Of a stretch of 64,000 nt of DNA, positions 4,695 to 60,753 are shown one piece after another. Both the position numbers and the translations under genes were made by a program. The notes beneath the pieces were generated by a model, which made no database searches, was not told the DNA's origin, and saw only the letters and a list, made by a program, of their open reading frames with translations. The stretch's first letter is position 1. Every line of letters begins with the position of its first letter. This DNA is from Pontibacter qinzhouensis. Lineage in GTDB: Bacteria > Bacteroidota > Bacteroidia > Cytophagales > Hymenobacteraceae. The stretch spans positions 1 through 64,000 of the forward strand of contig NZ_VRTY01000012.1 of the NCBI RefSeq assembly GCF_008017455.1, given 5' to 3'.

Positions 4695-4752
4695 ACCCTT
4701 GACTAAAAATATGCGGTTTTACCTCCGGAAGGCCATTTTCATTCAAATAATT
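4695..4752 (-). repeat. 57-bp intergenic element, copy 1
   Basis: Read on the minus strand it starts AATTATTTGAATGAAAATGG, has the hairpin CCTTC-C-GGAGG, and ends GTCAAGGGT. It lies upstream of the gene starting at 4611, pointing toward it. A longer composite repeat adjoins its AATTATT end. Confidence 0.85.
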
Positions 4753-4870
4753 GCTTGTTGTTAGTTGTTGCTTGTTAAATGGTTAAACAGGTGATTTAAA
4801 GAGGGGAAGATTTGGAAATGGAGAAGGATAAATTTTGATTGATTGAATGAGAGGATGAGTGAATAAAAAA
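4753..4870 (-). repeat. Composite intergenic phrase beside element copy 1
   Basis: From the AATTATT end of the 57-bp element outward come, in order: a TTGTTGTTAGTTGTT-like stretch with TTAAATGGTT, then GAAGATTTGGAAATGGAGAAGG, then AAATTTTGATTGATTGAATG, GAGGATGAGTGAAT and an A run. The same order recurs beside the copies at 45436-45493 and 60697-60753. Confidence 0.6.
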
Positions 4871-5216
4871 CCCTCAATTCTTAACCCATACCTTTTAACT
4901 AATGAAGGTCTGGCGTCTAAAATCTATCAGAAGAGTAAAATGAATGAATCGACAAGACCTGGCAGTATGCGCAGCTTCGGTGGGTATCTGGGCAGTCGGA
5001 CGGTCAAAATCTTTCCTTGGTTTTTTAAAAAAGTAAATTATTTGTATTAAACTTTGTGGTAATCGTATAGAGGGGCATAAAAGTCAGTTTCATGGAATTA
5101 TACCTGTTCTATATTTGTTTTGTTGAATGGTCATTATCAGTCAAATACGTGTATAGTTATTTGCAAATGTTTTAGCCGGGCTTCATAAAATTTAAAATAA
5201 ATCGTAATTTCGTGTC

Positions 5217-5498
5217 ATGAATATTGGAACAGAAATTTTGCATCAGGAAGATGTAGCCGTTTTAGAAGAAACGACTGATTTCAGAAACCTGGTTGTCTAT
5301 AATGATGATGTGAATACCTTTGATCATGTAATTGAAACGCTGATCAGGGTGTGCGGCCACGATGCCGAGCAGGCTGAGCAGTGTACGCTCCTGATTCATT
5401 ATAAAGGGAAATGCACGGTGAAAGTAGGTGCTTACGAGGAACTCGAAGGCATGTGTACTGCCCTGCACGACAAAGACCTTTCTGCTAACATTGAATAA
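5217..5498 (+). CDS. clpS: ATP-dependent Clp protease adaptor ClpS
   Basis: This 93-residue protein carries the ClpS core: the NDDVNTFDHVI motif at residues about 28-38, the helix with CGHDAEQAEQC, the HYKGKCTVKVG strand and the EELEGMCTALHDKDL C-terminal helix. ClpS binds the N-domain of ClpA/ClpC and presents N-end-rule substrates for degradation in the cytoplasm. Length and motif order are normal for the family. The ATG lies only five bases after a -7-like TAATTTCG, so the mRNA may have almost no leader. recR follows after 15 bases, so the two are probably co-transcribed. Confidence 0.93.
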   Translation: MNIGTEILHQEDVAVLEETTDFRNLVVYNDDVNTFDHVIETLIRVCGHDAEQAEQCTLLIHYKGKCTVKVGAYEELEGMCTALHDKDLSANIE

Positions 5499-5513
5499 CA
5501 GGACGGAGGTTTA

Positions 5514-6122: not shown

Positions 6123-6240
6123 CCAGTGTGGGTGTGGTTTTAAAAGCAAGATGTTATACCATCAGTCAGTTATTTTTAGTAGGACACAAATTTTCTGAAG
6201 CTTTTTTTACCAGTAAAACGTTTTTTAATGCTCTGCTTGG

Positions 6241-6274
6241 AAAAAGATACCTCTTTTCGTGGTATCTTTTTTTT
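6241..6274 (+). terminator. Intrinsic terminator after recR
   Basis: Perfect 10-base arms AAAAGATACC (6242-6251) and GGTATCTTTT (6261-6270) enclose a 9-base loop and run into eight T. It ends the clpS-recR unit. Confidence 0.88.
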
Positions 6275-6363
6275 ATTTTATATTCAGTTTAACTAATATG
6301 CGTTTGTAAATTAATTCATCCCGAACCATAAGTACTTGTTTTGTGGGAATATAACATTGTTGC

Positions 6364-7638: not shown

Positions 7639-7682
7639 GGTGTTTGCCGGTAAGGGGTTCAAGGTCGGTTAATTTCTTTCTC

Positions 7683-7739
7683 AATTATTCAAATAAAAAA
7701 GCCCTTCCAAAGCAAAAAAGCTCCCAAACCTCCAAGGGT
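7683..7739 (+). repeat. 57-bp intergenic element, copy 2
   Basis: Starts AATTATTCAAATAAAAAAGC and ends TCCAAGGGT. The hairpin is degenerate (CCTTCCAAAGC). It lies 44 bases after the glycosyltransferase stop, in the same orientation. Confidence 0.8.
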
Positions 7740-7872
7740 ACTGCTTAACGAATTGATGTTTGGCAGTCAGCAAACCAGGAAGTTAGCATAAAAATGCTAC
7801 CAGATAATTTTGGTATTCATTATGTAACTCTCAGCAGCGCTACTTGTAGTATAGCCAAATCTTCCTGAACCA

Positions 7873-7929
7873 GATTATTCAAATAATAATAGCCTCCAGA
7901 AGAAATTTTATCAAAATATTGCCAAGGGT
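7873..7929 (+). repeat. 57-bp intergenic element, copy 3
   Basis: Starts GATTATTCAAATAATAATAG, continues CCTCCAGAAG, and ends TTGCCAAGGGT. It is a direct repeat of copy 2, about 190 bases away. Confidence 0.8.
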
Positions 7930-8283: not shown

Positions 8284-8304
8284 ACCTTTATTAATTTTAA
8301 CCTT

Positions 8305-14263: not shown

Positions 14264-14321
14264 GGCCTTGGGTAATTAAAGGTGAAAAAACCTTCGGAAG
14301 GCCATTTCCATTAGAATAATT
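14264..14321 (-). repeat. 57-bp intergenic element, copy 4
   Basis: On the minus strand it starts AATTATTCTAATGGAAATGG, then CCTTCCGAAGGTTTTTT, and ends CCAAGGCC. It starts about 15 bases after the hemE stop in the same orientation, so it sits like a terminator of hemE. Confidence 0.85.
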
Positions 14322-14336: not shown

Positions 14337-15377
14337 TTAGCTGTTTACGATACCGCTGTATTCCTTCACCGTCTGGATAAAGCATTTCACTTTTTCCGGA
14401 TCTGTATCGGGATAAACGCCGTGGCCCAGGTTGGCGATGTGCCGCTGTGGCCCGAATTGCTTCAGCATTTTTATAGTTTCGGATTGAATGGTTTCGAAAG
14501 AGCTGTACAGCAGGCAAGGGTCCATGTTGCCTTGCAGGGTTTTGCTGTTGCCCACCTGCTCCCGCGATGTAGCTACCTCCATGTTCCAGTCAAGCCCGAT
14601 AACTTCGCAATTCAGTTTGCTAAAATCCTCTAAAGCGAAGAAGGCACCTTTGGCAAATACAGTTACAGGCACGTCATTTATAGCATTGCAGATTTCGCTG
14701 ATGTATGGCAACGAAAAAGTCCTGTATTGCGCCGGCGACAGAATCCCTGCCCAGGAGTCGAAGATCTGAATCAGGTTAGCGCCTGCCTTTACCTGCGCCT
14801 GCAGGTAAGCAATGGTGGTGTCGGTGATCATGCGCAGCAACTGGTGCGCCAGTTTGGGGTTGGTGTACAACAAGCCACGGGCATGCGAAAACGTTTTAGA
14901 ACCGCTTCCTTCTACCATATAGGCCAGAATAGTCCAGGGGGCACCGGCAAAACCGATGAGGGGAACCCGGCCGTTAAGGGCTCTTTTGGTAACGCGTATT
15001 GCTTCGAGCACATAGCCCAGGTGCTCCTCAGGGTCAGCTACCCGCAGGCGTTTCAGGTCCTGCTCCGTCCGGATGGTAGCCGGGAAGTAAGGACCACGCT
15101 TCTCCACCATCTCGTAAGTGCAGCCCATGGCTTCGGGCACCACCAGGATGTCGGAAAAAATAATGGCCGCGTCCACATCCAGAATATCAACCGGCTGAAT
15201 GGTTACTTCTGCTGCAAACTCCGGCGTTTCTACCAATTCTTTAAAGCCACTCAGGCTTTCGCGCACCGCTCTGTATTCAGGTAAAATGCGTCCGGCCTGG
15301 CGCATGAGCCAAACAGGAGTGCGTTCTACTACCTCTCCCTTAGCTGCTCTAATAAGCAAATCGTTTTTCAGTTGCAT
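14337..15377 (-). CDS. hemE: Uroporphyrinogen decarboxylase
   Basis: HemE, 346 residues, removes four acetate carboxyls from uroporphyrinogen III to give coproporphyrinogen III in cytoplasmic heme synthesis. The signature [14 protein letters not shown] lies at residues 23-36, followed by the catalytic Asp in [42 protein letters not shown] and [13 protein letters not shown]. The length is normal. On its coding strand TATCTTTG ends only four bases before the ATG, so the message may be leaderless. It stands alone and faces the trkH genes. Its product, heme, is what the exported catalase and the nearby heme-import genes also handle. Confidence 0.97.
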
Positions 15378-15550: not shown

Positions 15551-15607
15551 AACCTTGGCAATAAATGCCTGAAAAACCTTCTGAAGGCCAAATTCATTAG
15601 AATAATT
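15551..15607 (-). repeat. 57-bp intergenic element, copy 5
   Basis: Minus strand starts AATTATTCTAATGAATTTGG, hairpin CCTTCAGAAGGTTTTT, ends TTGCCAAGGTT. It lies 147 bases after the marC stop in the same orientation. Confidence 0.85.
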
Positions 15608-16369: not shown

Positions 16370-16399
16370 AGAGGATCGGTAGCGTATAAAGTAGGGCGT

Positions 16400-16429
16400 T
16401 AAATATAGCTTTTTCAGGATGCAAAACAA
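16400..16429 (-). promoter_or_regulatory. Putative promoter of marC
   Basis: On the minus strand, TTG (16429-16427), 19 bases, then TATATTTA (16407-16400) is one base off TAnnTTTG. It lies 31 bases before the ATG. Confidence 0.45.
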
Positions 16430-16579
16430 AAGTATTGCCGCCCCGGATGCATAATACCGCAGCAGGGGGAGTAGGGTTTGCAGATTATCCTTAATTTTGA
16501 GGAAACATTGGCTGAAGCAACCCCGCAACAAGGTGCACCAGCTGCAAATTGTAAAGATCATTTTATTCAGATAAATAGT

Positions 16580-19901: not shown

Positions 19902-19958
19902 AATTATTTAAATGAAAATGGCCTTCAGAAGCTTCTCAGGTCATTTTTAGCCAAGGGT
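19902..19958 (+). repeat. 57-bp intergenic element, copy 6
   Basis: Starts AATTATTTAAATGAAAATGG, hairpin CCTTCAGAAGC, ends TAGCCAAGGGT. It lies 12 bases after the HTTM-like gene in the same orientation. Confidence 0.87.
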
Positions 19959-20271: not shown

Positions 20272-20618
20272 AAAGTTAGAGTTGATTTTTGATAGTATAC
20301 GGTGGTACAGTAAAAGCTGTGCTATCACATTTTTACTTTGGCGAACCCCGGTCCCCAACCAGTATCTCTAAATAAGTATAGGCAATTATTATATGTCAGG
20401 TAAACCCTTGGCAGCAATTTGATGAAAATCCTTCAGAAGGCTATTTTCATTAGAATAATTTGGAATACGAAAGCTGAAATAGTTTTGGACTTAGGAGATA
20501 GAACTAATTTGCATGTACTTAGTTCACAGTCAGCTTTAGTTCTAAATATAACTTAAGACCTATAAATTAAGAAATGCCCCTATAGCCCCTCATTCATAAT
20601 TTCTGATTTGGGAAAAGT
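20272..20618. other. Gap upstream of the small gene, downstream of sbcC
   Basis: Holds element copy 7 (20404-20460). The remainder is AT-rich with no recognisable gene. Confidence 0.5.
20404..20460 (-). repeat. 57-bp intergenic element, copy 7
   Basis: Minus strand starts AATTATTCTAATGAAAATAG, then CCTTCTGAAGGATTTTCATC, ends TGCCAAGGGT. Here ATGAAAAT and ATTTTCAT extend the hairpin on both sides. It lies about 160 bases after the sbcC stop in the same orientation. Confidence 0.9.
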
Positions 20619-24374: not shown

Positions 24375-24432
24375 GCCCCTGGCCACATTTAAGCACAAAT
24401 TTGGTTGGAGGGGCAATTTCATTAGAATAATT
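24375..24432 (-). repeat. 57-bp intergenic element, copy 8 (degenerate)
   Basis: Minus strand starts AATTATTCTAATGAAATTGC and ends GGCCAGGGGC. The hairpin has decayed (CCCTCCAACC) but length and ends are kept. It lies 55 bases after the sbcD stop in the same orientation. Confidence 0.65.
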
Positions 24433-25872: not shown

Positions 25873-25929
25873 AATTATTCTAATGAAAACGGCCTTCCAA
25901 AGCTTTTTAGTGAAATTAAGGCTTAGGGT
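25873..25929 (+). repeat. 57-bp intergenic element, copy 9
   Basis: Starts AATTATTCTAATGAAAACGG, then CCTTCCAAAGCTTTTT, and ends GCTTAGGGT. Its right end overlaps the last 14 bases of the rhodanese gene on the other strand and supplies that gene's last three codons and stop. Confidence 0.85.
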
Positions 25930-30041: not shown

Positions 30042-30098
30042 AATTATTCTAATCAAATTGGCCTTCCGAAGGTGTTTTATCAAATTATCGCCAAGGGT
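30042..30098 (+). repeat. 57-bp intergenic element, copy 10
   Basis: Starts AATTATTCTAATCAAATTGG, hairpin CCTTCCGAAGGTGTTTT, ends TCGCCAAGGGT. It lies 53 bases after the regulator gene in the same orientation. Confidence 0.9.
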
Positions 30099-30416: not shown

Positions 30417-31406
30417 ATGAAGACTACCACTCTCGCGACTATAAAGAAAATAACCCAAAGGAAACATAACTTATCACTGCTCACAATGCTGCCATTTGTT
30501 TTATTTTGGATGAGTTGCACCAAGGGAACTAGCGAACAGGCAACGGCAGAAAATACGGTTGTTTTTCAGGAACCGGCAGGAACATCATCGGTGAAAATAG
30601 TGACTGTGGGTGGTACCATTACCGAGACTGTTTGCGCACTTGGCCTCTGCGACAACATTGTAGCCACCGACCTGACAAGCTCGTATCCGGAGCACATGAG
30701 GCAGTTGCCTTCGTTGGGTTACCGCAACAGCATAAAAGCAGAAGGAATAATTTCTACGGGAGCTGAGCTGGTTTTGGTTGAGGCTGGTTACCTCGATAAA
30801 GTGGTGGAAGAGCAGCTTGCCGCAGCTAACATAAAAACTTACCTGTTCGAAAACAAATGGAGCAAGGCAGGCTCGGCAGAACTGATTACCGCATTAGGCA
30901 AACTGCTGCAGCAGGAAGGCAAAGCCACGGAACTTGTGCAGGAACTGGAGCAGGATTTCGCAGAAGTGAACACGCTGCTGCAGCGAGCCAAAACAAAACC
31001 CAAGGTGCTTTTTGTGTATGCACGTGGTCAGGGTACATTAAATATTGGGGGGCGCAAAACCTTTGCCGATGCCATGCTGCAACTGGCAGGCGCACAACTG
31101 GCTGTGCCGGAAATAGAAGATTACAAACCACTTACTGCCGAGGCCATGATTGCCGCTAACCCCGATTACCTGCTGTTTTTCGACACTGGGCTTCAAAGCC
31201 TTGGTGGTGCAGGTGGTGTAGCTGCCATACCCGGAATAAAAGAAACAGCAGCTGGTAAAAAGAACCAGGTTATTTCCATGGATGGACTCTATCTGTCGGG
31301 GTTTGGGCCACGGCTCGGGAAGGCGGTGAAAGAGCTGGCTTGGCAGCTGCATCCGGAGCTGCATACTCCCGATAACCTGCACCAAAATGCTCTAACCCAT
31401 AATTAA
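30417..31406 (+). CDS. hmuT: Heme ABC transporter substrate-binding lipoprotein
   Basis: This 329-residue periplasmic binding protein of the TroA/BtuF-like class III fold carries a lipobox FWMSC after a long leader (about Cys34). Landmarks are KIVTVGGTITETVCALGLCDNIVATDLTSSYP (residues 60-91, described in parts), SLGYRNSIKAEGIISTGAELVLVE, KPKVLFVYARGQGTLNIGG, and PDYLLFFDTGLQSLGGAGGV. These match HmuT hemin-binding proteins. It binds heme delivered across the outer membrane and passes it to HmuU. The hmuU GTG follows the stop without a gap. A strong promoter precedes it. Confidence 0.9.
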   Translation: MKTTTLATIKKITQRKHNLSLLTMLPFVLFWMSCTKGTSEQATAENTVVFQEPAGTSSVKIVTVGGTITETVCALGLCDNIVATDLTSSYPEHMRQLPSLGYRNSIKAEGIISTGAELVLVEAGYLDKVVEEQLAAANIKTYLFENKWSKAGSAELITALGKLLQQEGKATELVQELEQDFAEVNTLLQRAKTKPKVLFVYARGQGTLNIGGRKTFADAMLQLAGAQLAVPEIEDYKPLTAEAMIAANPDYLLFFDTGLQSLGGAGGVAAIPGIKETAAGKKNQVISMDGLYLSGFGPRLGKAVKELAWQLHPELHTPDNLHQNALTHN

Positions 31407-32474: not shown

Positions 32475-32724
32475 GGCTGCGCTGACTTCAAAATTAAAAA
32501 TTAGAAATTCAAAATTAGAAATGTCGTAGAATATGGTGCTTTGTATATTTTATGCCTGAATTATTCTAATGAAAATAGCCTTCCAAAGCTTCATGCACAA
32601 AGATGTTTCAAGGGTTTCAGAGTTAAAAATGATTTACAGAACTGTCATTTGGAAATCTTCAAATTTTCAAATTTCCAAATTAAAAAAATAGCACTTACCA
32701 ACTTAATCTGGCAAAGCCAAATAT
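32475..32724. repeat. Gap inside the heme operon: A-rich 16-bp phrases and element copy 11
   Basis: 32490-32522 holds two copies of an AAAATTAGAA-ending 16-base phrase, as at 46734. 32559-32615 is a 57-bp element. 32650-32680 is an imperfect palindrome GGAAATCTTCAAATTTTCAA followed by ATTTCC. No gene is visible. Confidence 0.55.
32559..32615 (+). repeat. 57-bp intergenic element, copy 11
   Basis: Starts AATTATTCTAATGAAAATAG, then CCTTCCAAAGCTT, ends TTTCAAGGGT. It lies 84 bases after hmuU in the same orientation. Confidence 0.88.
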
Positions 32725-34636: not shown

Positions 34637-34680
34637 CATGTTCACAGGTAATTAGAAAGACCTTAGTTTATTTAAGTTAG

Positions 34681-34737
34681 ACCCTTGGCAAGATTCGGAT
34701 GAAAAACCTTCTGGAGGCTGTTTTCATTTGAATAATT
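34681..34737 (-). repeat. 57-bp intergenic element, copy 12
   Basis: Minus strand starts AATTATTCAAATGAAAACAG, then CCTCCAGAAGGTTTTTCATC, ends TTGCCAAGGGT. ATGAAAA and TTTTCAT extend the stem. It is antisense to hmuS. Confidence 0.9.
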
Positions 34738-35028
34738 TAGAAACTAACGATGAAATGTGCCTTTTCAATCCGACAAACCTCCTTTGAATGCTTTTAATAA
34801 TTCCTTAACCGGCGCTTTTGGCTCTAGTAGTACTTAGTTTATTAGTTGCAAGGTTTAATATATAACAGCTGGTGTGTTTTCGTTGCAGATAGTTTATTAG
34901 TTTTTGCTTTACTGATAAGGCCGGAGGGGCAGGTGAAAGGTGAAATTTGCCTGCTCCAATGGTTCTGCTTCGGTACCTGCACACAAATTTTGTAGCACTG
35001 CCCGAACCTCTTCTAGCATCGAACGAAA

Positions 35029-35085
35029 GATTATTCAAATGAAAATGGCCTTCGGAAGAAATTTTAATTGAATTCTGCCAAGGGT
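35029..35085 (+). repeat. 57-bp intergenic element, copy 13
   Basis: Starts GATTATTCAAATGAAAATGG, then CCTTCGGAAG, ends TCTGCCAAGGGT. It is inverted relative to copy 12, about 290 bases away. Confidence 0.9.
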
Positions 35086-35213
35086 AATACCGTCTTATTC
35101 ATCCGGCAGTTAAGCTGACCAAATTGCCTGCTGCTGCTTTTACTTCAAATAATTCGTTAACTCCATTTGGTGATTTAACACAAGACGTATCAGTTTTTCT
35201 TATTCTGCCCTGT

Positions 35214-35245
35214 TGCCGTAGCACTTCCAACTAGTAGCTGCGGCA
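35214..35245 (+). other. Hairpin in the leader region of the TonB receptor gene
   Basis: TGCCGTAGC (35214-35222) can pair with GCTGCGGCA (35237-35245), nine pairs including one G-U, around a 14-base loop. It ends 67 bases before the ATG. It may be a control element or chance. No known riboswitch motif is present. Confidence 0.3.
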
Positions 35246-35312
35246 GGAGCAGCCCTGTATGCTGTTGCCTTTTCTGAATTGCTATAGCCATGTTGTTAGT
35301 TCCTTATTTTTT

Positions 35313-37574: not shown

Positions 37575-37617
37575 CCTGAAGCCACACCAGCTTTTATGCC
37601 CCTTTTTAATTGCCTAA

Positions 37618-37674
37618 ACCCTTGGCTACAAAACACTTATTTTCCTTCTGAAGACCATTTTTATTTAAATAATT
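37618..37674 (-). repeat. 57-bp intergenic element, copy 14
   Basis: Minus strand starts AATTATTTAAATAAAAATGG, then TCTTCAGAAGG, ends TAGCCAAGGGT. It lies between the receptor and HmuY genes, antisense to both, 31 bases before the HmuY ATG. Confidence 0.87.
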
Positions 37675-37705
37675 TACTTCAACTAATCTTAAAAACCTTA
37701 CTTAC

Positions 37706-39073
37706 ATGCAACGTTTATATTATTCATTTTTGATGCTGTTTGTCCTGCATTCGCTCGTGTCCTGCCAAGACGATGATCCTCCTTTACCAGATAACATGGT
37801 GCAGTTCGAGGCCGAAACGATTGGCTTTGAGGCGCAGGCTACCGAAATCGACGTAAAAGTAAGATTCACACGGGCAACTGATGCGGCGGTTCCGGTTACG
37901 GTAACTTTGCAAAGCACCAGCCTCACCTACGGCACTCATTTTACAACAGAGCCGGCAGCCACAAATGGCGCTATAGACCTGACCGTGCCATCAGGCAGCA
38001 GCGAAGCGTCCATTAAGGTGAAGAAGGTGGCGGGCTTGCTGCTCGATGGGGATGAGGAAATCAGCTTTACGATGGCAGCAGCCAGTGTGGGAATAGTAGT
38101 AGGCAGTGCGGCTTCGCTTACCCTGAGCTTCTCCGAAATTCTTTCGCAAAATGCCGCTATGGCTATAAACGGGGGAGGAGCTGCATATCTGAACAAGGTT
38201 TTTATAGACTTAAGCGCCAACAGGCAGGTAGCCGTTGCCCGCATCGCCTGGGACCTTGGTTTTTTTGCCGGAGACGATTTCAGGGTGATCCTCAACAACG
38301 AAACCGGAGCACTGGCCATTGCTTTAGATAAAACAGATCTGAACCAGGTTACTGCCCAGGATACAGTAGCACTTGTCTCTAAACTCAGCCTGGATACCTT
38401 CTCACCAGAAGCCATGAATTTCATAGATGATGTGGAAGGTGATCTGACCAAAACTGCCATTGCTTCCGTTTCTGCCACCGATTCGGAAAACAAGGTGTAC
38501 ATCGTTAACCGTGGTACAAAAGGCGCTGCTGCCAGAGGCTGGCAAAAGATTCGGGTGCTGCGCAGCGGTAACGGCTACAAACTCCAATATGCCGATATTA
38601 AGGCCACCACCTTTAAGGAGCTGACGGTTGCAAAAGACAGCAACTACAATTTCCAGTATGTGTCGTTTACGAATGGTGCGGTAACGGTGGAGCCAGCCAA
38701 AGATCGCTGGGACATCGCCTGGACTGCCTACACCTACAAATCGGGTGCTATACCTTATTATTTTCAGGACATGGTGCTGCTCAACAACCTGGGTGGTGCC
38801 GCAGTAGCCAAAGTGCCGGCGAGTGAGGTTAGTTACGATGCCTTTGGCGAAAGTCACCTTTCCGGTCTCGATTTTAAAACGAACCGCATGGCCATTGGCT
38901 CAGACTGGCGCTTTACTACAGGAGAGGGAGCGCCCAATGTTTACATCGATAGGTTTTATGTGGTGAAAGATGCGGACGGTAACATCTACAAACTCAAATT
39001 TACGGCCATGACCCAAAGTGGCGAACGTGGCAAGCCACAAATTCAGTATGCTCTGGTAAAAAAAGGAGCTTAG
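37706..39073 (+). CDS. HmuY-family heme-binding lipoprotein with extra N-terminal domain
   Basis: This 455-residue exported lipoprotein has lipobox LVSC (Cys20) followed by a QDDD tail, typical of surface-exposed Bacteroidota lipoproteins. Residues about 28-150 form an extra beta-rich (Calx-beta-like) domain; about 155-455 match the HmuY fold (KVFIDLSANRQVAVARIAWDLGFF, SYNFQYVSF-like strands, RWDIAWTAYTYKSGAIPYYFQD, and GSDWRF ... VYIDRFYVVKDADGNIYKLKF). Porphyromonas HmuY is about 215 residues, so this one is twice as long. Only two His remain in the mature protein (THFTTE and GESHLSG), so heme ligands may be Met or Tyr. It follows the receptor gene, its expected partner. Confidence 0.85.
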   Translation: MQRLYYSFLMLFVLHSLVSCQDDDPPLPDNMVQFEAETIGFEAQATEIDVKVRFTRATDAAVPVTVTLQSTSLTYGTHFTTEPAATNGAIDLTVPSGSSEASIKVKKVAGLLLDGDEEISFTMAAASVGIVVGSAASLTLSFSEILSQNAAMAINGGGAAYLNKVFIDLSANRQVAVARIAWDLGFFAGDDFRVILNNETGALAIALDKTDLNQVTAQDTVALVSKLSLDTFSPEAMNFIDDVEGDLTKTAIASVSATDSENKVYIVNRGTKGAAARGWQKIRVLRSGNGYKLQYADIKATTFKELTVAKDSNYNFQYVSFTNGAVTVEPAKDRWDIAWTAYTYKSGAIPYYFQDMVLLNNLGGAAVAKVPASEVSYDAFGESHLSGLDFKTNRMAIGSDWRFTTGEGAPNVYIDRFYVVKDADGNIYKLKFTAMTQSGERGKPQIQYALVKKGA

Positions 39074-39197
39074 GTTATTTGGCTTCAATCGGGTTGGTTT
39101 GGCAGGTCCGCCTGGTTGTTGTCGTACTTTAACACAGATCTACTAAAATCTGCCGCTATTTACCATTGCTATTTTTAAGTAAAACTCGGTCAGGAGT

Positions 39198-39265
39198 AAT
39201 TATTGTAATGAAAACAGCCTTCCAGAAGCTTTTTTAGCATTTGGAAGGCTGTTTTGTTCAAGGGT
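39198..39265 (+). repeat. 57-bp intergenic element, copy 15 (extended to 68 bp, terminator-like)
   Basis: It starts AATTATTGTAATGAAAACAG and ends TCAAGGGT. Eleven extra bases create a 14-base perfect stem: AAAACAGCCTTCCA (39211-39224) with its complement at 39242-39255, ending in a T run. It lies between the converging HmuY and ABM genes and should terminate both. Confidence 0.9.
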
Positions 39266-39285
39266 AATTTATTTCTGGATGCGAG

Positions 39286-39579
39286 TTAATCTACTATCAA
39301 ATGCCGGTGCGACCAGGCTTGTGGTTTGGCAGCAAATAATGCCTTCGTCTCTTTCCAGACAGATTGGAACAGCTCAGACTGGCGGTAGGCGTTCAGGTGT
39401 TCTTCTGAGTCCCAGAGGCTATAGGTGCTGAACACATTCGGCTGGTGCAGGTCCTGCAGCAACTCCACATGCCGGCACCCTGCAAAGCTCTGAATCTTAT
39501 CTCGCGAGTTTCTGAAAATAGCCAGAAAAGCCTCCGTTTCCTCCTCCCGAAAAGTCATGCGCACGATCCGTATCAGCAT
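39286..39579 (-). CDS. Antibiotic biosynthesis monooxygenase (ABM) family protein
   Basis: This 97-residue ferredoxin-like dimeric alpha/beta-barrel protein contains MLIRIVRMTFREEETEAFLAIF, AGCRHVELLQDLHQPNVFSTYSLWDSEEHLNAYRQ (residues 36-70, in parts) and the C-terminal HRHLIVD. The family includes quinol monooxygenases and heme-degrading IsdG. The Trp in SLWDSEEHL is common to both, so substrate cannot be decided. Its place beside the heme locus makes heme handling possible but unproved. It converges on the HmuY gene. Confidence 0.82.
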   Translation of the reverse strand: MLIRIVRMTFREEETEAFLAIFRNSRDKIQSFAGCRHVELLQDLHQPNVFSTYSLWDSEEHLNAYRQSELFQSVWKETKALFAAKPQAWSHRHLIVD

Positions 39580-41674: not shown

Positions 41675-41731
41675 ACCCTTGAGACTTAAATTGTACTTTC
41701 CCTTTTGGAGGCCCATTTCATGTAAATAATT
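41675..41731 (-). repeat. 57-bp intergenic element, copy 16
   Basis: Minus strand starts AATTATTTACATGAAATGGG, then CCTCCAAAAGGG, ends GTCTCAAGGGT. It lies between the phoH terminator and the Rpn gene, antisense to both. Confidence 0.8.
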
Positions 41732-41782: not shown

Positions 41783-42679
41783 ATGGATAGATTTGAAGAA
41801 AAGTACGTCAATCCGTTTACCGACTACGGCTTTAAGCGCATTTTCGGCGAGGAGCCAAACAAAGAACTGCTGCTCGATTTTCTGAATGTATTGCTGAAAG
41901 AAGAACAGGGGGAGATTGTAGAACTGACCTACCTGAAGAACGAAAATTTAGGCACCAGCGAACTGGATAGAAAAGCCATCTTCGATTTGTATTGCGAAAA
42001 TGAGCGGGGCGAGAAGTTTATAGTAGAGCTTCAGAAAACAAAGCAAAACTTCTTCAAAGACCGGACGCTGTACTACGCCACCTTCGCGATACGCGAGCAG
42101 GCAAAGCGAGCAGGGTGGAATTATGAGCTGAAAGCTGTGTACACCATTGCCATACTCGACTTTGTTTTCGAGGAAGATAAGAACGAACCACATAAATTCC
42201 GCTACGACATCAAGCTGTCGGATATAGAAACAAAAAAGGTGTTTTATAATAAACTCACCTTCATTTACCTCGAAATGCCCAAGTTCAACAAAACCCTGGA
42301 AGAGCTTGAAACGCGGTTCGATAAATGGCTTTTTGTTATAAAAAACCTGCACAGGTTAGAGCGTATACCGGATAAACTGCGGGAACGGATCTTTGAAAAG
42401 CTTTTTGAGTCGGCCGAGATAGCCAAGTTTACGCCTCACCAGGTTCGGTTGTATGAAGACAGTTTAAAATATTACCGGGACTTAAAAAATTCCTTAGATA
42501 CAGCCAAGGAAGAAGGTCGGGAAGAGGGTAGGGAAGAAGGTAGACAGGAAGGTTGGGAGCAAGGTAGAAAACAGCGGGCTCTGGAGATTGCCAGAAAAGC
42601 AATCGCAAAAGGGTTTGCTGTTGAAGATATTATTGACCTAACAGGCTTATCGAAAGATGACATTGAAAAGCTGATGTAA
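41783..42679 (+). CDS. Rpn-family recombination-promoting nuclease (PD-(D/E)XK transposase-like)
   Basis: This 298-residue protein matches the TIGR01784/PDDEXK_2 family: NPFTDYGFKRIFGEEPNKELLLDFLN (residues 11-36, in parts), then the nuclease core RKAIFDLYCENERGEKFIVELQ near 68-90 with Asp, Glu and the Q of the motif. The C-terminal part has a charged run EEGREEGREEGRQEG encoded by near-tandem nucleotide repeats, then AIAKGFAVEDIIDLTGLSKDDIEKL. E. coli Rpn proteins are nucleases that promote RecA-independent transfer of DNA segments. It stands alone behind element copy 16. Confidence 0.88.
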   Translation: MDRFEEKYVNPFTDYGFKRIFGEEPNKELLLDFLNVLLKEEQGEIVELTYLKNENLGTSELDRKAIFDLYCENERGEKFIVELQKTKQNFFKDRTLYYATFAIREQAKRAGWNYELKAVYTIAILDFVFEEDKNEPHKFRYDIKLSDIETKKVFYNKLTFIYLEMPKFNKTLEELETRFDKWLFVIKNLHRLERIPDKLRERIFEKLFESAEIAKFTPHQVRLYEDSLKYYRDLKNSLDTAKEEGREEGREEGRQEGWEQGRKQRALEIARKAIAKGFAVEDIIDLTGLSKDDIEKLM

Positions 42680-43220: not shown

Positions 43221-45418
43221 TGCGGCTGCCCTGGGCACCATACCCGTTTTTGCGCATCACGCTATGCTTCATAGCAGGCATCCTGATTTATATTTTTACA
43301 GGCAAGGAGTTCAGGCATAGCCAGGAGATCCTTGCTTTTTTTATTTTAGCCTTTGTGCTAACTTGTCTTGTGAGCAAACACCTGAAAACAGCACACGCAA
43401 CGGCTGTAACTGGCACACTAGGGTTGCTCTGCTTTGTAGCAGGTGGTATCTGGCTAACACACTGGCATACAGAATCGCACCGGCAGGATCACCTGTTGCA
43501 GCTGCCAGGCCAGCCTACGGCTTATGTGGGTGTGGTAGATGATTTTGTAGCGCAGAAAACCGGTTATCAGAGTACAGTGCTCAGGCTGGAACAGGTGCAG
43601 GCAGATGGCGTTTGGCGGCAGGTGACAGGCAAAGTGCAGCTATCGGTGCCACATGATTCGGAGAAAAAATATGAGGTGCGTTATGGCGACAGGCTGTTAA
43701 TACGGGGTGCTCCACAGGCTGTGCCACCGCCCACAAACCCCAACCAGTTCGATTACAAACAATACCTCGCCAACAAAAACATTTACCACCGGCACTCTCT
43801 ACGGCCACAGCAGTACCAGTTACTTGGCACCGATCCACCCAACCCGATTAAATATTACAGCATTATACTGCGCCGGAAACTGGATGCGATTCTGCAGGAG
43901 TCAATAGAGGAGCGGCGGGAATATGGCATCTCAACGGCACTTGTGCTGGGTGTGAAAGATGATATGGATAACGCCATCCGCTCTGCTTATTCCAGCACCG
44001 GTACTATGCATGTGCTGGCGGTTTCGGGGTTGCATGTAGGTATGATTTACCTGCCATTGTCGTTACTGTTCAAAAAGTTTCGTCGGAATAAAAGTCAGCG
44101 CGTTTTTGGGGCTGTAGTTATAATTGGCTTCTTAATGCTGTATGCCTTTCTTACAGGCCTTTCGCCATCGGTGCAGCGAGCGGTGCTTATGTTCTCGCTC
44201 GTGACGGTAGCACAGGCTATACGGCGTAAAACGAACAGTTATAACACGCTGGCTATCGCTGCTTTTATACTTCTGTTTCTCGATCCATATTACCTGTTTG
44301 ATGTAGGTTTTCAGCTATCGTTTCTGGCGGTGCTGGGTATTGTGTACTTGCAGCCCAAGCTAAACAGAGTACTTGATTTTTCTTGCTTTGAAGCACATCA
44401 CCGGCCATTTAACTTCAAAGAAATAAAAAAGGCACCCTTGTTGGTAGCGAAAAGTATGGTCTTGAGCTTGCCAGAAACCATATGGGTTTCATTTACCTTG
44501 TCGGTGGCGGCACAACTGGCTACTTCTCCGCTAGGTATATTTTATTTCTACCAGTTTCCGGTTTATTTCTGGTTTGCAAACCTGCTTGTTGTGCCGCTGG
44601 CTATGCTGGTGCTATATATGGGAGTGGGAGCTTTGTTTTTTTCGTGTGTGCCGCTACTGGGCTGGGCTTTGTTCCGGCTGCATTTCGGGCTGATCTGGTG
44701 CATGAATGAGTTTAACCTATGGGTAGAGCAACTGCCGCATGCCGTTGTTCAGGGCATCGACATAAATGCGCTGCAAACCTGGCTGCTCTATGGCATTATG
44801 TTGCTTTTGTTGCTTTTCATGGCCTACAGGCGGCTTAGTTACCTTGCTGTAGCTGTTTTGGTTACGGCTATGCTGGCATTTCAGCAGATACAGAAAAGCG
44901 GGCAACAATTTCGGCAACAGCGGTTTGCTGTATACAACCTGCGTGGCAACACGGCCTTTGCGCTTGTAAATGGCAAGAAGGCGGCAGTCGTGAGCAATGC
45001 TGCGCTACATCCTGCTGCACCAGACTATACTTTTAATGTGCAGCCGCACCTGTGGCAACAAGGGGTAATGAAGCCCGATTTCACTCAAATAAATTCTTCA
45101 GTTCCTCCGGCAGGAGCAGCCTACGCTATGCTACCCGACAGTAACATCGTTTACCAGTGGCAGGATTTGCGCCTGCTTGTGCTTACAAAGCCGCTGAAGG
45201 TGCAGCCGCCGGAACTGCTGAACCCCGATTTTGTGCTTATCACTAAAAATGCCCGCCTCGTGCCGGAGGACCTGCAGCCACTTCAGTTCCGGAAACTTAT
45301 TCTCGACGCTTCGAACAGCCCCTGGTACCTGGAGCGACTGAAACCTCAGCTGCTTGCCCTCCATATTCCTTTTCATGATGTAAGTGTGGATGGGGCTTTT
45401 GTGGCGGAGCTGGAGTAG
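43220..45418 (+). CDS. comEC: ComEC/Rec2 DNA uptake channel protein
   Basis: This 732-residue inner-membrane protein has an N-terminal OB-like DUF4131 domain (about 25-200, with PNQFDYKQYLANKNIYH) and a competence channel domain (about 215-500: HVLAVSGLHVGMIYLP, AFLTGLSPSVQRAVLMF, DVGFQLSFLAVLGIVYL). ComEC moves single-stranded DNA into the cytoplasm during natural transformation. The C-terminal 200 residues look like a remnant of the metallo-beta-lactamase domain, but the HxHxDH metal motif is missing, so nuclease activity is unlikely here. Its start overlaps the GNAT stop by one base. Confidence 0.92.
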   Translation: MRLPWAPYPFLRITLCFIAGILIYIFTGKEFRHSQEILAFFILAFVLTCLVSKHLKTAHATAVTGTLGLLCFVAGGIWLTHWHTESHRQDHLLQLPGQPTAYVGVVDDFVAQKTGYQSTVLRLEQVQADGVWRQVTGKVQLSVPHDSEKKYEVRYGDRLLIRGAPQAVPPPTNPNQFDYKQYLANKNIYHRHSLRPQQYQLLGTDPPNPIKYYSIILRRKLDAILQESIEERREYGISTALVLGVKDDMDNAIRSAYSSTGTMHVLAVSGLHVGMIYLPLSLLFKKFRRNKSQRVFGAVVIIGFLMLYAFLTGLSPSVQRAVLMFSLVTVAQAIRRKTNSYNTLAIAAFILLFLDPYYLFDVGFQLSFLAVLGIVYLQPKLNRVLDFSCFEAHHRPFNFKEIKKAPLLVAKSMVLSLPETIWVSFTLSVAAQLATSPLGIFYFYQFPVYFWFANLLVVPLAMLVLYMGVGALFFSCVPLLGWALFRLHFGLIWCMNEFNLWVEQLPHAVVQGIDINALQTWLLYGIMLLLLLFMAYRRLSYLAVAVLVTAMLAFQQIQKSGQQFRQQRFAVYNLRGNTAFALVNGKKAAVVSNAALHPAAPDYTFNVQPHLWQQGVMKPDFTQINSSVPPAGAAYAMLPDSNIVYQWQDLRLLVLTKPLKVQPPELLNPDFVLITKNARLVPEDLQPLQFRKLILDASNSPWYLERLKPQLLALHIPFHDVSVDGAFVAELE

Positions 45419-45435: not shown

Positions 45436-45493
45436 ACCCTAAGGCCTGAAGAACAATAAATGCCTCCGGAAGGCTCTTTTCATTAGAATAATT
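45436..45493 (-). repeat. 57-bp intergenic element, copy 17
   Basis: Minus strand starts AATTATTCTAATGAAAAGAG, then CCTTCCGGAGG, ends GCCTTAGGGT. It lies 18 bases after comEC, antisense to it. The composite phrase follows on its AATTATT side. Confidence 0.85.
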
Positions 45494-49130: not shown

Positions 49131-49187
49131 AATTATTCTAATAAAAAGTGCCTTCCGAAGATTTCTTGGCTATATGATGCCAAGGGT
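49131..49187 (+). repeat. 57-bp intergenic element, copy 18
   Basis: Starts AATTATTCTAATAAAAAGTG, then CCTTCCGAAGATTTCTTGG, ends ATGCCAAGGGT. It lies 162 bases after the STAS-like gene, in the same orientation, between converging genes. Confidence 0.9.
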
Positions 49188-51967: not shown

Positions 51968-52515
51968 GGCAGATGATTTATTTGTTTTAGATGTTTAACG
52001 ATTTCTATACTAAAAAAGAAGAAGGCAAGGAATAAACTGTAAAACGAAACTAACATGCCTAAGTTAAACTATTCCGCCAATTAAAAGTAAGTTACAACGA
52101 AAGTGCTGCACCAAGTTATAGTCCTTGACTCAACTTTCCAGAACTTGGAATAGCACTGCTATCTGTTACTGGACATAAGACGCAGGACGCAAGAAGTTAA
52201 CTTTAACCTTCGAATCTGAAAGTTACAGGTAAGTGCAAGTTTCTGAATAATTAAAAATTGCAAAGAAATGACTAGAGTCTTCATACTTGCATCTTTTTTT
52301 GCCTGATTAAAGTTCGTGACGAATTATTTGAATGAAAATGGCCTTCCGAAGGTTTTTTGGCTACATTTCGGTAAGGTCTGCATATAGCTATGTGCCTTTG
52401 CGTACACCTTTGTTTTATGAGTGCCGGGCAGAATTTAGCAGCCAACGTTTGTTATTTCTGCTAAGTGGTGCTAATATTAACTGTTGATATCGCTTTACCT
52501 GAATTAAACTGTACT
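51968..52515. other. Gap upstream of the beta-propeller lipoprotein gene
   Basis: Contains element copy 19 and, near 52170-52200, the phrase ACTGGACATAAGACGCAGGA related to that upstream of thiL. No gene is visible. Confidence 0.5.
52322..52378 (+). repeat. 57-bp intergenic element, copy 19
   Basis: Starts AATTATTTGAATGAAAATGG, then CCTTCCGAAGGTTTTTTGG, ends GTAAGGTC. It does not follow a plus-strand gene; the next plus-strand gene starts 138 bases later. Confidence 0.85.
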
Positions 52516-53486: not shown

Positions 53487-53543
53487 AATTATTTGAATGG
53501 AAAAGGCCTTCAGAAGGTTTTTTAAGATTTTTTTGCCAAGGGT
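53487..53543 (+). repeat. 57-bp intergenic element, copy 20
   Basis: Starts AATTATTTGAATGGAAAAGG, then CCTTCAGAAGGTTTTTT, ends TTGCCAAGGGT. It lies 98 bases after the propeller gene, in the same orientation. Confidence 0.9.
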
Positions 53544-53553
53544 AATCCGGTAA

Positions 53554-54516: not shown

Positions 54517-54533
54517 AAACTGGTATGGTGATA

Positions 54534-55227: not shown

Positions 55228-55284
55228 AATTATTCTAATGAAATCAGGCTTCCGAAGGTTTTTTAGAAAACTTCTTCCAAGGTC
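55228..55284 (+). repeat. 57-bp intergenic element, copy 21
   Basis: Starts AATTATTCTAATGAAATCAG, then GCTTCCGAAGGTTTTTT, ends TTCCAAGGTC. No plus-strand gene lies upstream. Confidence 0.87.
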
Positions 55285-55667: not shown

Positions 55668-55724
55668 ACCCTTGGATAAAAACTAACGAAAAACTCTTGG
55701 AAGGCACTTTTTATTCTAATAATT
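55668..55724 (-). repeat. 57-bp intergenic element, copy 22
   Basis: Minus strand starts AATTATTAGAATAAAAAGTG, then CCTTCCAAGAGTTTTT, ends TATCCAAGGGT. It faces copy 21 in inverted orientation. Confidence 0.87.
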
Positions 55725-59000: not shown

Positions 59001-60562
59001 AACTGAAGCGGGCTAAAGATGTTGCCGAAGAATCGGCGCGTGCCAAAGAGAACTTTCTGGCCAACATGAGCCATGAAATCCGGACACCGATGAACGGCAT
59101 TATGGGTATGGCAGGTTTGCTCGGTAAAACAGAATTAACCCCGGCTCAGAAAAACTACCTCAACATCATTCGGCACTCATCCGATAACCTGCTGGTCGTG
59201 ATAAACGATATTCTGGACTTTTCGAAGCTGGAGGCTGGTAAAATTACAATAGAACACATTCCGTTCAACCTAAGCGATACTGTTACGCAGGCTTACGAAA
59301 CCCTTAAATACAAGGCAGAAGAAAAGGAGGTCAGCTACAGGTTAAAACCATTTCCGCCCGAACTGGCCACGCTCATGGGCGACCCGTACCGCCTGAACCA
59401 GATTCTGCTGAACCTGCTCAACAATGCCATCAAGTTTACGGAGCAGGGCTTCGTGGAACTTTCGGTAAGGCTGGTGCACCAAAACGAGGAGTTGCAGGAG
59501 CTGGAGTTTATGGTGCAGGACACCGGCATAGGTATTCCGGAAGATAAGCGCGAGAGTATTTTCGAAGGGTTTACGCAGGCTTACAGTAGTACAACGCGCA
59601 AATATGGAGGCACCGGCCTCGGCCTCAACATCAGTAAAGCACTTGTCGAGATGCAGAAGGGCCATATCTGGGTCGAGAGCCAGAAAGACAAAGGCAGTAG
59701 TTTTAAATTCACGATTCCATACAAAAAAAGTAAGTCTCAAATTAATCCTGAACCTGCGGCCGAGCTTAACTTTAGCGAGCTCCAGCACCTGCACGTGCTC
59801 CTTGCCGAAGACAACGAAGTAAACGTGTTTCTGGCCCGATCGATAATGGAAGAATGGGGTGCCACTGTAGATGTAGCCCTAAACGGAGTAAAGGCAGTTG
59901 AAATGGCTAAGGAACACTATTACGATGTTATTTTAATGGATATCCAGATGCCGGAGCTTAATGGCCTGGATGCCACACAGCTAATACGCTTGCTGCCAGA
60001 TCAGAAAAAGGCCAACGTTCCGATTATTGCCCTCACTGCCAATGTCATTAAAGGCGATGCTGAAAAGTACATCGATGCCGGTATGAATGATTATGTCTCC
60101 AAACCATTTCAGGAAGAGGAGTTGTTCCTGAAAATTAAGGCGGCACTACCCGCTGATGCACCTAAAACGATGGCAGAAGAAGAAAGAGCTGTATACCAGG
60201 TGCAGGTGCAGGAAGAGGAGCCAGACCAGCCGCTATACGACCTGTCGTTGCTCGAAAAAATGACCCGTGGCAACCAGAACATGATCAGGAGAACGAAGCA
60301 GATTTTTGTAGACACAGTACCTAAAACCGTAACGGAACTGGAACTGAAATACAAAGCTGCAGACTGGCCTGGTGTAAGTGCCACCGCTCATAAACTTAAA
60401 CCGACCTACGACCTGCTCGGAATCGAAAAATTGCACAAGGTAATCCGCGAAATAGAACTTAACGCCAAGCAACAAGCAAACCTCCCGGAAATAGGAGCGC
60501 AGGTACAACTGGTGGTGCAGGTATCTGACCAGGTAGTGCAGCAGTTGCAGAAAGAGCTGTAG
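56030..60562 (+). CDS. Hybrid sensor histidine kinase with eight PAS domains, receiver and Hpt
   Basis: This 1510-residue cytoplasmic signalling protein has no membrane segment. About eight PAS/PAC units cover residues 10-985 (for example YGILVTDGQGTIVSVNDAF, YVKDAAGIYSYVNNTFAAYV, VICLHDTDGTITFISKSVEDL). Then come HisKA with phospho-His1015 (ANMSHEIRTPMNGIMG), the ATPase domain (NLLNNAIKFTEQG, DTGIGIPEDK, YGGTGLGLNISK), a receiver with Asp1304 (VILMDIQMPELNG, Lys in YVSKPF) and an Hpt domain with His1454 (ATAHKLKPTY). This gives a complete internal His-Asp-His relay that needs an external response regulator, none of which is adjacent. The ligand(s) are unknown. Confidence 0.93.
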   Translation: MMHDQNQDSALAVLLFEKLQYGILVTDGQGTIVSVNDAFAAYVALPAPAYSYAGKPISSLGEYAFLAQPAVAPGKSAGPVTTRITVDGTDFRCQVVAGIEVAGAGATGIACILSAEDALDTVPQKPDPKQQQTFTDHNPNPVFSVSYEGELLYRNAAAHKLLQQLSAKRQAALGKLLLRKIRKADKDLYTGECVVYLGQSYYNFSVVHDQHHEFVRLYLIDISTKRQAQQALKESQRLVHNIMRTVPGIIFIYEPATGKTLYTNSYVEQVLGYNSVDVAIMGETFLFSIICEDQVEQVRARLQRIAHSPSDDVDELEYKVKDKAGNVRWLACRESVFERNAAGQVTQVIGSAIDITEQKRHTQLLAKQKAFYESILDTISSEIVVFDHELRYKYVNPSAIKEKEVRDWMLGKNNTEFAAFRNLPEERFLHRSKHLKEALEKKAPVQMSETITDEAGAATHVIREINPLIDEKGRVKLLVTSGQDVTALHNAQQEALTSEAYNKAILRAIPDLVFIVDKDGTFKAANNSAYIPMGMTEAELVGKNLRSLLPQQLADQFQEHFDQVLRTGQIATLKHNHDSAKGTIFCETRVLKYDDDTLLMMVRNITEQHENELLLKEKDELLRQIMDNSFNLIYVKDAAGIYSYVNNTFAAYVGRPAEEIIDKTASGVLRQAAQNAAVQETDAKVLRTMCQHTIEEPFTIYNGQEAWLRIVKKPLVARSGEVQILSIATDITEEKQAKLQLQKSEELYRLLSENSKDVICLHDTDGTITFISKSVEDLFGYTQSEMIGMSPFALLHPDDAVQVNSDTLREVLAQKNNTMVDLRLRRKEGEYIWVEVAIKPIVNKEGETYKIQTSFRDISDRKKASEALKSSEKKYRELIKHSQAYILTHDMEGNILSVNPYLLHQLGLAEADVLGKGFQLFFSYTSAQSYQEYLQQFDKVSAAEGLFTITDREGERRYLYCQSYKVQEQGDAPYLIAIAQDITERILIEEELKRAKDVAEESARAKENFLANMSHEIRTPMNGIMGMAGLLGKTELTPAQKNYLNIIRHSSDNLLVVINDILDFSKLEAGKITIEHIPFNLSDTVTQAYETLKYKAEEKEVSYRLKPFPPELATLMGDPYRLNQILLNLLNNAIKFTEQGFVELSVRLVHQNEELQELEFMVQDTGIGIPEDKRESIFEGFTQAYSSTTRKYGGTGLGLNISKALVEMQKGHIWVESQKDKGSSFKFTIPYKKSKSQINPEPAAELNFSELQHLHVLLAEDNEVNVFLARSIMEEWGATVDVALNGVKAVEMAKEHYYDVILMDIQMPELNGLDATQLIRLLPDQKKANVPIIALTANVIKGDAEKYIDAGMNDYVSKPFQEEELFLKIKAALPADAPKTMAEEERAVYQVQVQEEEPDQPLYDLSLLEKMTRGNQNMIRRTKQIFVDTVPKTVTELELKYKAADWPGVSATAHKLKPTYDLLGIEKLHKVIREIELNAKQQANLPEIGAQVQLVVQVSDQVVQQLQKEL

Positions 60563-60604
60563 GTTAAAAAAGATGTTTGATACTGGATATAAGGCCTTTT
60601 GTTA

Positions 60605-60696
60605 GTTAAAAGTTGATTTTTATTCTTTCATCCTCTCATTCAAAATTTCTTCCAATCAACCATCTAACAAACAACAATCAGCAATGAACAACCAGC
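60605..60696 (+). repeat. Composite intergenic phrase beside element copy 23
   Basis: It reads TTCATCCTCTCATTCAAAAT, TTCTTCCAATCAACCATC, then AACAAACAACAATCAGC and AACAACCAGC up to the AATTATT of the element. This is the inverse of the successions at 4753 and 45494. Confidence 0.6.
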
Positions 60697-60753
60697 AATT
60701 ATTCAAATGAAAATGGCCTTCCAAAGGTTTTAAGGCTATTTTGAGTCAAGGGT
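60697..60753 (+). repeat. 57-bp intergenic element, copy 23
   Basis: Starts AATTATTCAAATGAAAATGG, then CCTTCCAAAGGTTTT, ends AGTCAAGGGT. It lies 134 bases after the hybrid kinase, in the same orientation. Confidence 0.9.

Follow-up and report, generated by a model that had tools for sequence, protein, structure and literature searches.

The window analysed here is a 64-kb stretch of the 6.22 Mb genome of Pontibacter qinzhouensis (contig NZ_VRTY01000012.1, positions 1-64,000), in which the gaps between genes repeatedly hold copies of one short element of about 57 bp. When the window was scanned, with mismatches allowed, for a 31-base string from the left end of the element, 27 rows were returned. 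Of these, 23 with at most eight mismatches are element copies, spanning positions 4695-60753 and lying in both orientations, just as an earlier note on this DNA had described them; the remaining four, with 11-12 mismatches, are shifted or chance matches. The 20-base left end occurs 18 times in the window with up to three mismatches and never in 100 shuffles. Alignment of the 23 copies yields the consensus AATTATTCnAATGAAAATGGCCTTCCGAAGGTTTTTnnnnnAnTTnTTGCCAAGGGT. Their length is 57 bp, give or take one or two bases, with a right end that is blurred in some copies; the exception is a copy of 68 bp at 39198. Called genes are avoided by 21 of the 23 copies; of the other two, that at 25873 shares 14 bases with the 3' end of a called gene of 88 aa, and that at 4695 touches a called gene by a single base. 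Judging from sequence comparisons, the element is probably functional and most likely a landing site for a protein.

Abundance and carriers of the family

The family is not limited to the window. A 28-base pattern with up to three mismatches has 157 matches in P. qinzhouensis and none when reversed, and a sequence-only model has 158 matches at E ≤1 in 462 kb of this genome, the last few of which, together with some second-strand calls at the same site, are weak. Copies were counted with a matrix of 31 columns, which covers the left core and was built from both carrier species. Above 20 bits, the matrix finds 177 copies in 534 kb of P. qinzhouensis, or one per 3.0 kb, and 187 copies in 509 kb of the sister species, Pontibacter beigongshangensis (strain T6-1). 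The resulting figure of ~2,000 copies per genome is an extrapolation, the genome-wide model search having taken in 150 candidates. Seven other Pontibacter genomes, sampled over 358 kb, yielded no copy at a cut-off as low as 8 bits, at which reversed controls gave 0-1 matches. The P. qinzhouensis contigs read are long ones already known to contain copies, and many of the P. beigongshangensis stretches were chosen for their top matches; stretches chosen by synteny (C55, C11 and C5) show a similar density of one copy per 2.8-2.9 kb. The score distribution in P. qinzhouensis is nearly all-or-none, with 177 copies at 24-52 bits, none at 12-24 and three at 8-12.

Among 59 genomes, namely P. qinzhouensis and its relatives, these two species are the only bulk carriers, and the best E-value elsewhere is 0.003. 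In 390 genomes of the order, eight pass an E-value of 0.001. More than one match is present only in the same two species, the other six genomes having single matches at 3e-4 to 1e-3. An exact pattern with 24 fixed bases matched only P. beigongshangensis T6-1 (43 stretches) among 84,980 species genomes, a survey in which own-genome records may be excluded and which diverged versions escape. Viral contigs, searched with one 20-base exact pattern, and plasmids, searched with one 121-base query, gave no match. The expected spread over Hymenobacteraceae was thus not found, and the family is confined to two species in the surveys run. In a tree of the hemE region built from 30 of the 50 genus genomes, the two carriers form a group with 100/100 support, the stem branch of which (0.16) is longer than both tips (0.11 and 0.10). 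No Rfam family matches the window at the gathering score, and no description of the sequence was found by word-based, open-licence literature searching, which does not prove its absence from print. As far as these searches show, the family is new, in agreement with what had been supposed from the window.

Two-part anatomy and placement between genes

The element consists of a 31-bp left core common to both species (AATTATTCNAATGAAAATGGCCYYCCRRAGG, columns 1-31) and a species-specific right part. In a model alignment of 150 P. qinzhouensis matches, one letter is found in at least 91% of copies at columns 1-7, 10-12, 14-16, 21-23, 25, 28-30, 51 and 53-57, and columns 9, 32, 37-42 and 46-48 are nearly free. 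The dense family with conserved ends and a variable middle that the earlier note had described is therefore real. The strongest dependencies are between neighbouring or nearly neighbouring columns, long-range ones being weaker. The P. qinzhouensis right part is composed of A/T runs plus GYCAAGGGT (columns 49-57). CAAGGGT, with at least six of seven letters, starts at column 51 in 111 and at column 52 in 33 of the 177 copies, which corresponds to a length of 57 or 58 bp in 144 of them; it lies elsewhere in six copies and was not found in 27. By contrast, conservation in P. beigongshangensis is limited to the left part, to about column 36, so that the fixed length claimed for the family is a property of P. 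qinzhouensis. CAAGGGT is found at column 52 in only one of 186 P. beigongshangensis copies, and a loose version of the P. qinzhouensis right end is matched by nine, several of them probably by chance. Instead, 90 of the 186 copies have CTGCTG in columns 32-61, versus one of 177 in P. qinzhouensis; the same hexamer is rare upstream (3/186) and on the other strand (2/186). In P. beigongshangensis, the core favours GGCC(C/T)TCCGGAGG; 69% of copies have C at column 23 and 86% have G at column 28. Both species have a short palindrome, the centre of which is shifted between them; in P. qinzhouensis it is CCTTC-N-GAAGG, followed by a T run that may also be an A run.

Runs of A or T occupy columns 33-36 and 42-46. 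AA and TT are over-represented there, and each of the seven steps tested has too little TpA (e.g. 7 observed versus 27.8 expected at columns 43-44). The middle is thus kept as A or T runs and not as fixed letters, suggesting selection on DNA shape. In the core, frame 1 is open and reads NYSNENGLPK, with TCN/TTR at columns 7-9. A peptide reading of this frame was dropped because columns 3, 6 and 12, at which changes would be silent, are T in 99-100% of copies; stops also occur in frame. At the level of RNA, the putative stems have no more compensating pairs than expected in the pair tables, and the window consensus folds at -0.41 kcal/mol with four pairs, two of which have one double change. 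Single folds of 17 of the 23 window copies place 14 within 1.7 sd of shuffles; the copies at 19902 (-2.05) and 52322 (-1.88) are somewhat stable and that at 39198 (-5.87) is very stable. The last copy is also covered by the one sub-threshold match of an Rfam E-value search (mir-30, 26.1 bits versus a gathering score of 50.2). An RNA reading was accordingly rejected on consensus fold, pair tables and single folds alike, save for the copy at 39198 and, mildly, the other two. Invariant silent positions, the lack of stem covariation and mostly ordinary folds place the constraint most simply on double-stranded DNA, independently of strand, RNA and protein, as in a protein-binding site.

Genes were called with a simple codon-usage script and not with a standard annotator. 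On these calls, 173 of the 177 P. qinzhouensis copies are intergenic, versus ~44 expected by length, and four reach more than 15 bases into a called gene, where length alone would predict 133. The statement that all copies lie between genes thus holds for the great majority and fails for a few; some of the coding-region matches look real. Convergent gaps contain 45 copies (29.8 expected), tandem gaps 103 (98.6) and divergent gaps 23 (42.6). Within tandem gaps, 72% of copies are in the stop-proximal half, and 45 have the same and 58 the opposite orientation to transcription. The P. beigongshangensis copies are similarly distributed: five of 187 are in genes, 49 in convergent, 96 in tandem and 29 in divergent gaps, with 66% stop-proximal. 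Copies are present in 18 of 63 divergent gaps, and nine of 19 divergent intervals shared by the two species hold a copy in both. Of the 18 pairs of same-direction neighbours less than 450 bp from each other in P. qinzhouensis, 14 have a spacing of 160-220 bp, compared with one of 14 opposite pairs; the corresponding numbers in P. beigongshangensis are 12 of 25 and four of 16. Seven of the 16 P. qinzhouensis pairs listed (e.g. C1:22443, C1:109499 and C166:26980) have a second dispersed repeat in their spacer, approximately CAGACACTCGCAGGAGCTGCGCACACTGCGAGGTCT, with an imperfect palindrome. With up to eight mismatches, this repeat occurs 15 times in the 534 kb of P. qinzhouensis, four times in P. 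beigongshangensis, once in outgroups and not at all in the reversed control.

Among the coding matches, thiE-like DNA (TMP-TENI domain) of both carriers contains an in-frame match to the core of 26-27 bits (DYLNEIPLPY), at L213:2137-2167 in P. qinzhouensis and L085:16334-16364 in P. beigongshangensis, the latter being counted among the 187 copies. Orthologs from eight other Pontibacter score -25 to -80 and show no resemblance, and the aligned segment has no indel. The match is unlikely by chance (well under 5% for the stretches read, as extrapolated from the background score tail) and may represent a site, a source or a coincidence. An antisense copy is found inside the called frame of an exosortase-domain gene of P. 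qinzhouensis (L065:15519-15573), just after the exosortase domain, which was searched for in the protein of this species, and likewise in its P. beigongshangensis relative (C11, ~35031); the called frame could be two genes read as one. The gene for a ComEC-like competence protein (window 43496-45418) has a P. beigongshangensis ortholog with an element-like coding stretch of 24 bits, as against 7 bits in P. qinzhouensis.

Shared places in the two sister species

The stretches read from the two species contain 145 reciprocal best hits with a median identity of 87.5% and 125 intervals between neighbouring shared genes. Intervals were compared if they measured at least 50 bp in both species and up to 3 kb, some including unshared genes, and copies in them were counted from 8 bits. 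Of 101 such intervals, 42 hold a copy in both species, 48 in neither, four only in P. qinzhouensis and seven only in P. beigongshangensis (Fisher p 2e-16, uncorrected for interval length). Orientation, which is free of the interval-length problem, agrees in 24 of the 28 intervals with one copy per species (p 2e-4). A first synteny pass with the model had given 18 intervals with copies in both, 21 in neither and four plus four in one only, missing diverged copies such as the partner of copy 5 (Table 1).

Aligned without gaps, the 24 same-orientation pairs have an identity of 0.73 over the core, as against 0.34 over columns 32-57 and 0.25-0.36 over the flanks. Neutral sequence is thus nearly saturated, whereas the core is not. 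Copies that are not orthologous have closely similar values (core 0.72, columns 32-57 0.30, flanks ~0.26), and orthologs are no closer to each other than non-orthologs, either over the core (0.726 versus 0.718), at its 12 variable columns (p 0.23) or in a comparison of nine pairs. One pair, that of window 24377-24432, retains rare variants and the left flank in P. beigongshangensis. At the same 24 one-to-one sites, CAAGGGT (at least 6/7) is kept in 15 P. qinzhouensis and no P. beigongshangensis copies, and strict CTGCTG is present in 12 P. beigongshangensis copies and one P. qinzhouensis copy. This single CTG tail suggests that both types of right half may have coexisted in the ancestor. Decayed copies are absent in P. 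qinzhouensis and few in P. beigongshangensis. Most gaps are too diverged for a precise insertion to be read from empty sites. In the gap at window 16370-16579, the species lacking the element has an aligned, degraded-looking stretch with a matrix score of -13, so that decay is no more than suggested. Conserved places, saturated neutral columns and flanks, and the scarcity of decayed copies point to an old dispersed family under purifying selection and not to active jumping. In our reading, an old spread, inferred from how long the motif is, was followed by purifying selection on those copies that survived.

Table 1. Copies of the element in the window and their counterparts in P. beigongshangensis
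Copy	Position	Strand	Feature	Counterpart
1	4695..4752	-	58 bp	
2	7683..7739	+	First of a same-direction pair, 190 bp apart	
3	7873..7929	+	Second of the pair with copy 2	
4	14265..14321	-	Directly after gene 14337-15377 (putative hemE)	Same gap, same orientation
5	15551..15607	-		None by model; diverged copy by matrix, same orientation, 20 bits
6	19902..19958	+		Interval without copy
7	20404..20460	-		Same gap, same orientation
8	24377..24432	-		Ortholog with the same rare variants and left flank
9	25873..25929	+	14-base overlap with 3' end of called small gene	Same gap, same orientation
10	30042..30098	+	Adjoins heme-uptake genes	
11	32559..32615	+		
12	34681..34737	-		
13	35029..35085	+		
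14	37618..37674	-		
15	39198..39265	+	68 bp variant with long hairpin, z -5.87	
16	41675..41731	-		Same interval, same orientation (28 bits)
17	45436..45493	-		Same gap, same orientation
18	49131..49187	+		Same interval, opposite orientation
19	52322..52376	+		Same gap, same orientation (23 bits)
20	53487..53543	+		Same gap, same orientation
21	55228..55282	+		One copy in interval, same orientation
22	55668..55724	-	Second copy in the interval of copy 21	None
23	60697..60753	+		Same gap, same orientation, different right half

Several features accompany the copies. Strand-asymmetric quasi-repeats, e.g. AACAATCAGCAACTAACAATCAACAACC, are found upstream of a number of them (e.g. window 60640-60696), and TAGATACTAGATGC or GACACAAGACGCAGGAC tracts downstream of some P. 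beigongshangensis copies. Six copies lie within or adjoin a stretch of heme-uptake genes at window 30417-39579 (periplasmic binding protein, FecCD, ABC, HemS, TonB receptor and HmuY). This stretch is missing from P. beigongshangensis at the corresponding place, and a close relative of the receptor was found in only one other of the 50 genus genomes, at 67% (G002). A gene for a PD-(D/E)XK nuclease family transposase (window 41783-42679) also adjoins a copy; the matching P. beigongshangensis interval is ~900 bp shorter and contains no called gene.

Interpretation and comparison with known systems

The earlier note had offered three readings of the element: a REP-like (repetitive extragenic palindromic) mobile element, a transcript 3'-end element and a protein-binding site. 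The last fits best, given a constraint that appears to act on the DNA itself, and we favour, with middling confidence, a DNA-level recognition site present ~2,000 times per genome and most likely bound by a clade-specific Pontibacter protein. Such a protein would make base-specific contacts with the left core and, in P. qinzhouensis, also with GYCAAGGGT, thus reading letters at both ends of a ~57-bp site and DNA shape in its middle. The sites would go back to an old mobile or copied sequence that spread on the branch from which both carriers descend, most survivors having apparently been held since by purifying selection, for which the evidence is indirect. Their most likely use would be architectural or as a boundary, in the nucleoid, in supercoiling or in insulation of gene ends. 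The right-half preference of the protein may have diverged between the species, the sites changing with it. It is a doubtful, though tangible, possibility that ~2,000 long, stable and sequence-specific sites had their right halves rewritten in parallel in one sister species while position, orientation and left core were kept, one species now having A/T runs plus GYCAAGGGT and the other, in about half of its copies, CTG triplets at fixed columns. If so, either a trans-acting chromosome-organising factor drags thousands of sites with it when its specificity changes, or a templated mechanism rewrites DNA beside a recognised core. Dispersed bacterial repeats are often taken for selfish relics; here, position, sequence and neutral-site data allow origin and present function to be told apart. 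Being old, still in place, for the most part undecayed and constrained as DNA, the copies form a clade-specific system of sites that can be tested in P. beigongshangensis T6-1, a sequenced strain. The differing right halves in the two species amount to a natural experiment on specificity change across thousands of sites.

A number of observations weigh against a bound recognition site kept by selection. No binding protein was found in a search that covered a single transposase family, Y1_Tnp. The ~45 bits summed over the core and 56 in the whole model far exceed what is needed for locating a site among 12 million positions, a surplus accounted for only by the proposed copying origin. The A/T runs are poor in ApT as well, if less sharply than in TpA (13 observed versus 36.6 expected at columns 43-44), so these are single-letter runs and not classic A-tracts of any order. 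Helical phasing, which wrapping would predict, did not reach significance for the element as a whole (p 0.46); a best period of 8.5 bp was obtained for columns 28-57 (p 0.015), from which we do not claim phasing. P. beigongshangensis copies in tandem gaps are biased in their orientation (35 same, 61 opposite, p 0.01), and this species has a small low-score tail (five copies at 8-20 bits and seven at 20-24, of 192). Its very similar copy pairs number 218 versus 116 expected; P. qinzhouensis copies behave almost like independent draws from the motif, with a slight excess of pairs of at least 88% identity (4 versus 0.4 expected). Finally, selection acting on one site at a time does not easily account for right halves that changed in parallel at many loci.

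Some of these points would suit a still-replicating, non-autonomous element of the REP or MITE (miniature inverted-repeat transposable element) type, in which old copies are replaced by the current type and the species-specific right halves reflect copy turnover. We consider this unlikely. Extragenic and stop-proximal placement with a bias to convergent gaps is seen in REPs, and sporadic occurrence in two species, the regular spacing of same-direction pairs (sharper in P. qinzhouensis), right halves that differ at shared places, the surplus of similar pairs in P. beigongshangensis and RAYT-like Y1_Tnp genes in both carriers point the same way. However, copies at shared places are mostly intact, the opposite of what is expected for an active repeat, and recent relatedness is almost lacking in P. 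qinzhouensis. Target-site duplication shows no excess at k = 2-10 in the 145 of 177 P. qinzhouensis copies with a clean right end, and with four of 12 end bases matching on the typed consensus, there are no terminal inverted repeats of the MITE kind. Y1_Tnp matches (five in P. qinzhouensis, six in P. beigongshangensis) are found in 43 of the 50 genus genomes without excess in the carriers, which does not favour RAYT as the driver. What survives of the REP-like reading is a likely origin and the location; a covarying stem-loop, a GTAG/CGTC foot and target duplication are lacking, and there is little sign of recent copying in P. qinzhouensis.

Improbable, too, is a direction-independent, sequence-specific transcription boundary, that is, a protein roadblock stopping or insulating transcripts at gene ends. 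The bias to stop codons and convergent gaps would be expected of it, and a few variants carry a long terminator-like hairpin (39198; C166:55837 in P. qinzhouensis). Yet the occupied divergent gaps, nearly half of the shared ones in both species, do not fit, and neither does the nearly even orientation in P. qinzhouensis tandem gaps. In two scanned window stretches, terminator-like sites exceed shuffles (42 and 39 versus 23.6 and 26.7 expected), but only one of the 14 copies there coincides with such a site. The stop-proximal bias thus upholds part of the transcript 3'-end reading, whereas the weak tie of orientation, the lack of RNA structure in most of the copies folded and the copies in divergent gaps do not. 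As they stand, the REP and terminator readings are not supported.

We find it quite improbable that the element is a DNA uptake signal like those of Pasteurellaceae and Neisseriaceae, kept by biased uptake and recombination and diverged into species dialects. Thousands of copies, a species-specific dialect and a core with two A/T runs behind it, roughly one turn from each other, would agree with such a signal; this arrangement may resemble that of the Haemophilus signal. The ComEC-like gene in the window and the indel-free core match in thiE could be seen in the same light, as could a different over-represented short motif in some other Pontibacter, missing from the two carriers. Nevertheless, known uptake signals are frequent in coding DNA and have many one-off variants, whereas coding copies are few here and P. 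qinzhouensis lacks a series of partial matches; the motif is also very long and its positions are stable. Least credible is a non-coding RNA or an encoded peptide: although frame 1 has somewhat fewer stops than column shuffles (24 versus 33, sd 4.7), its silent positions are invariant and stops do occur, and there is neither covariation, nor an Rfam match at the gathering score, nor a fixed tie to transcription.

The short motif of the other Pontibacter is itself of note. GGTATAG occurs 138-147 times per 100 kb in G067, G005 and G010 (L136-L140, L148-L150), versus 5-10 for the reversed string; of 228 occurrences in 160 kb of these three genomes, 78% are preceded by A and 66 are intergenic. AGTATA reaches 240 per 100 kb (reversed 17.5) in G023 (L144-L145) and 122.5 (reversed 40) in G002. 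No such strong enrichment of GGTATAG is seen in the two element carriers, G024 or G034. GGTATAG/AGTATA looks like an uptake-type signal with dialects.

Among the closest known systems are REPs and REPINs, whose GTAG and CGTC families are associated with RAYT transposases (PMC3733652, PMC8266576). The element resembles them in being short, mostly extragenic, lineage-specific and present in many copies, in both orientations and with a bias to gene 3' ends. It differs in having no covarying stem-loop of 5-13 bp, in its two-part structure, in its retention at shared places despite saturated neutral positions and in showing no clear tie to RAYT presence. The flanks of 148 P. qinzhouensis and 132 P. 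beigongshangensis copies contain no conserved tetranucleotide that could serve as a GTAG/CGTC foot.

The element shares with other dispersed intergenic repeats (MITEs, ERIC, Correia, RUP and STAR) its clade-limited occurrence in many copies between genes; unlike them, it has no terminal inverted repeats or target duplication, and copies at shared places are mostly undecayed. With the DNA uptake sequences (DUS) and uptake signal sequences (USS) of Neisseriaceae and Pasteurellaceae, it has in common a copy number of ~2,000, dialects that differ between related species, little polarity with respect to transcription and A/T runs next to a core, but it is longer (31-57 bp versus about 10-30), rare in coding DNA, free of partial matches in P. 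qinzhouensis and conserved in placement. The short palindrome followed by T's in P. qinzhouensis is reminiscent of an intrinsic terminator. In the element, however, the T run may be an A run, the stem does not covary, orientation is not tied to genes and the left arm is a sequence-specific 20 bp.

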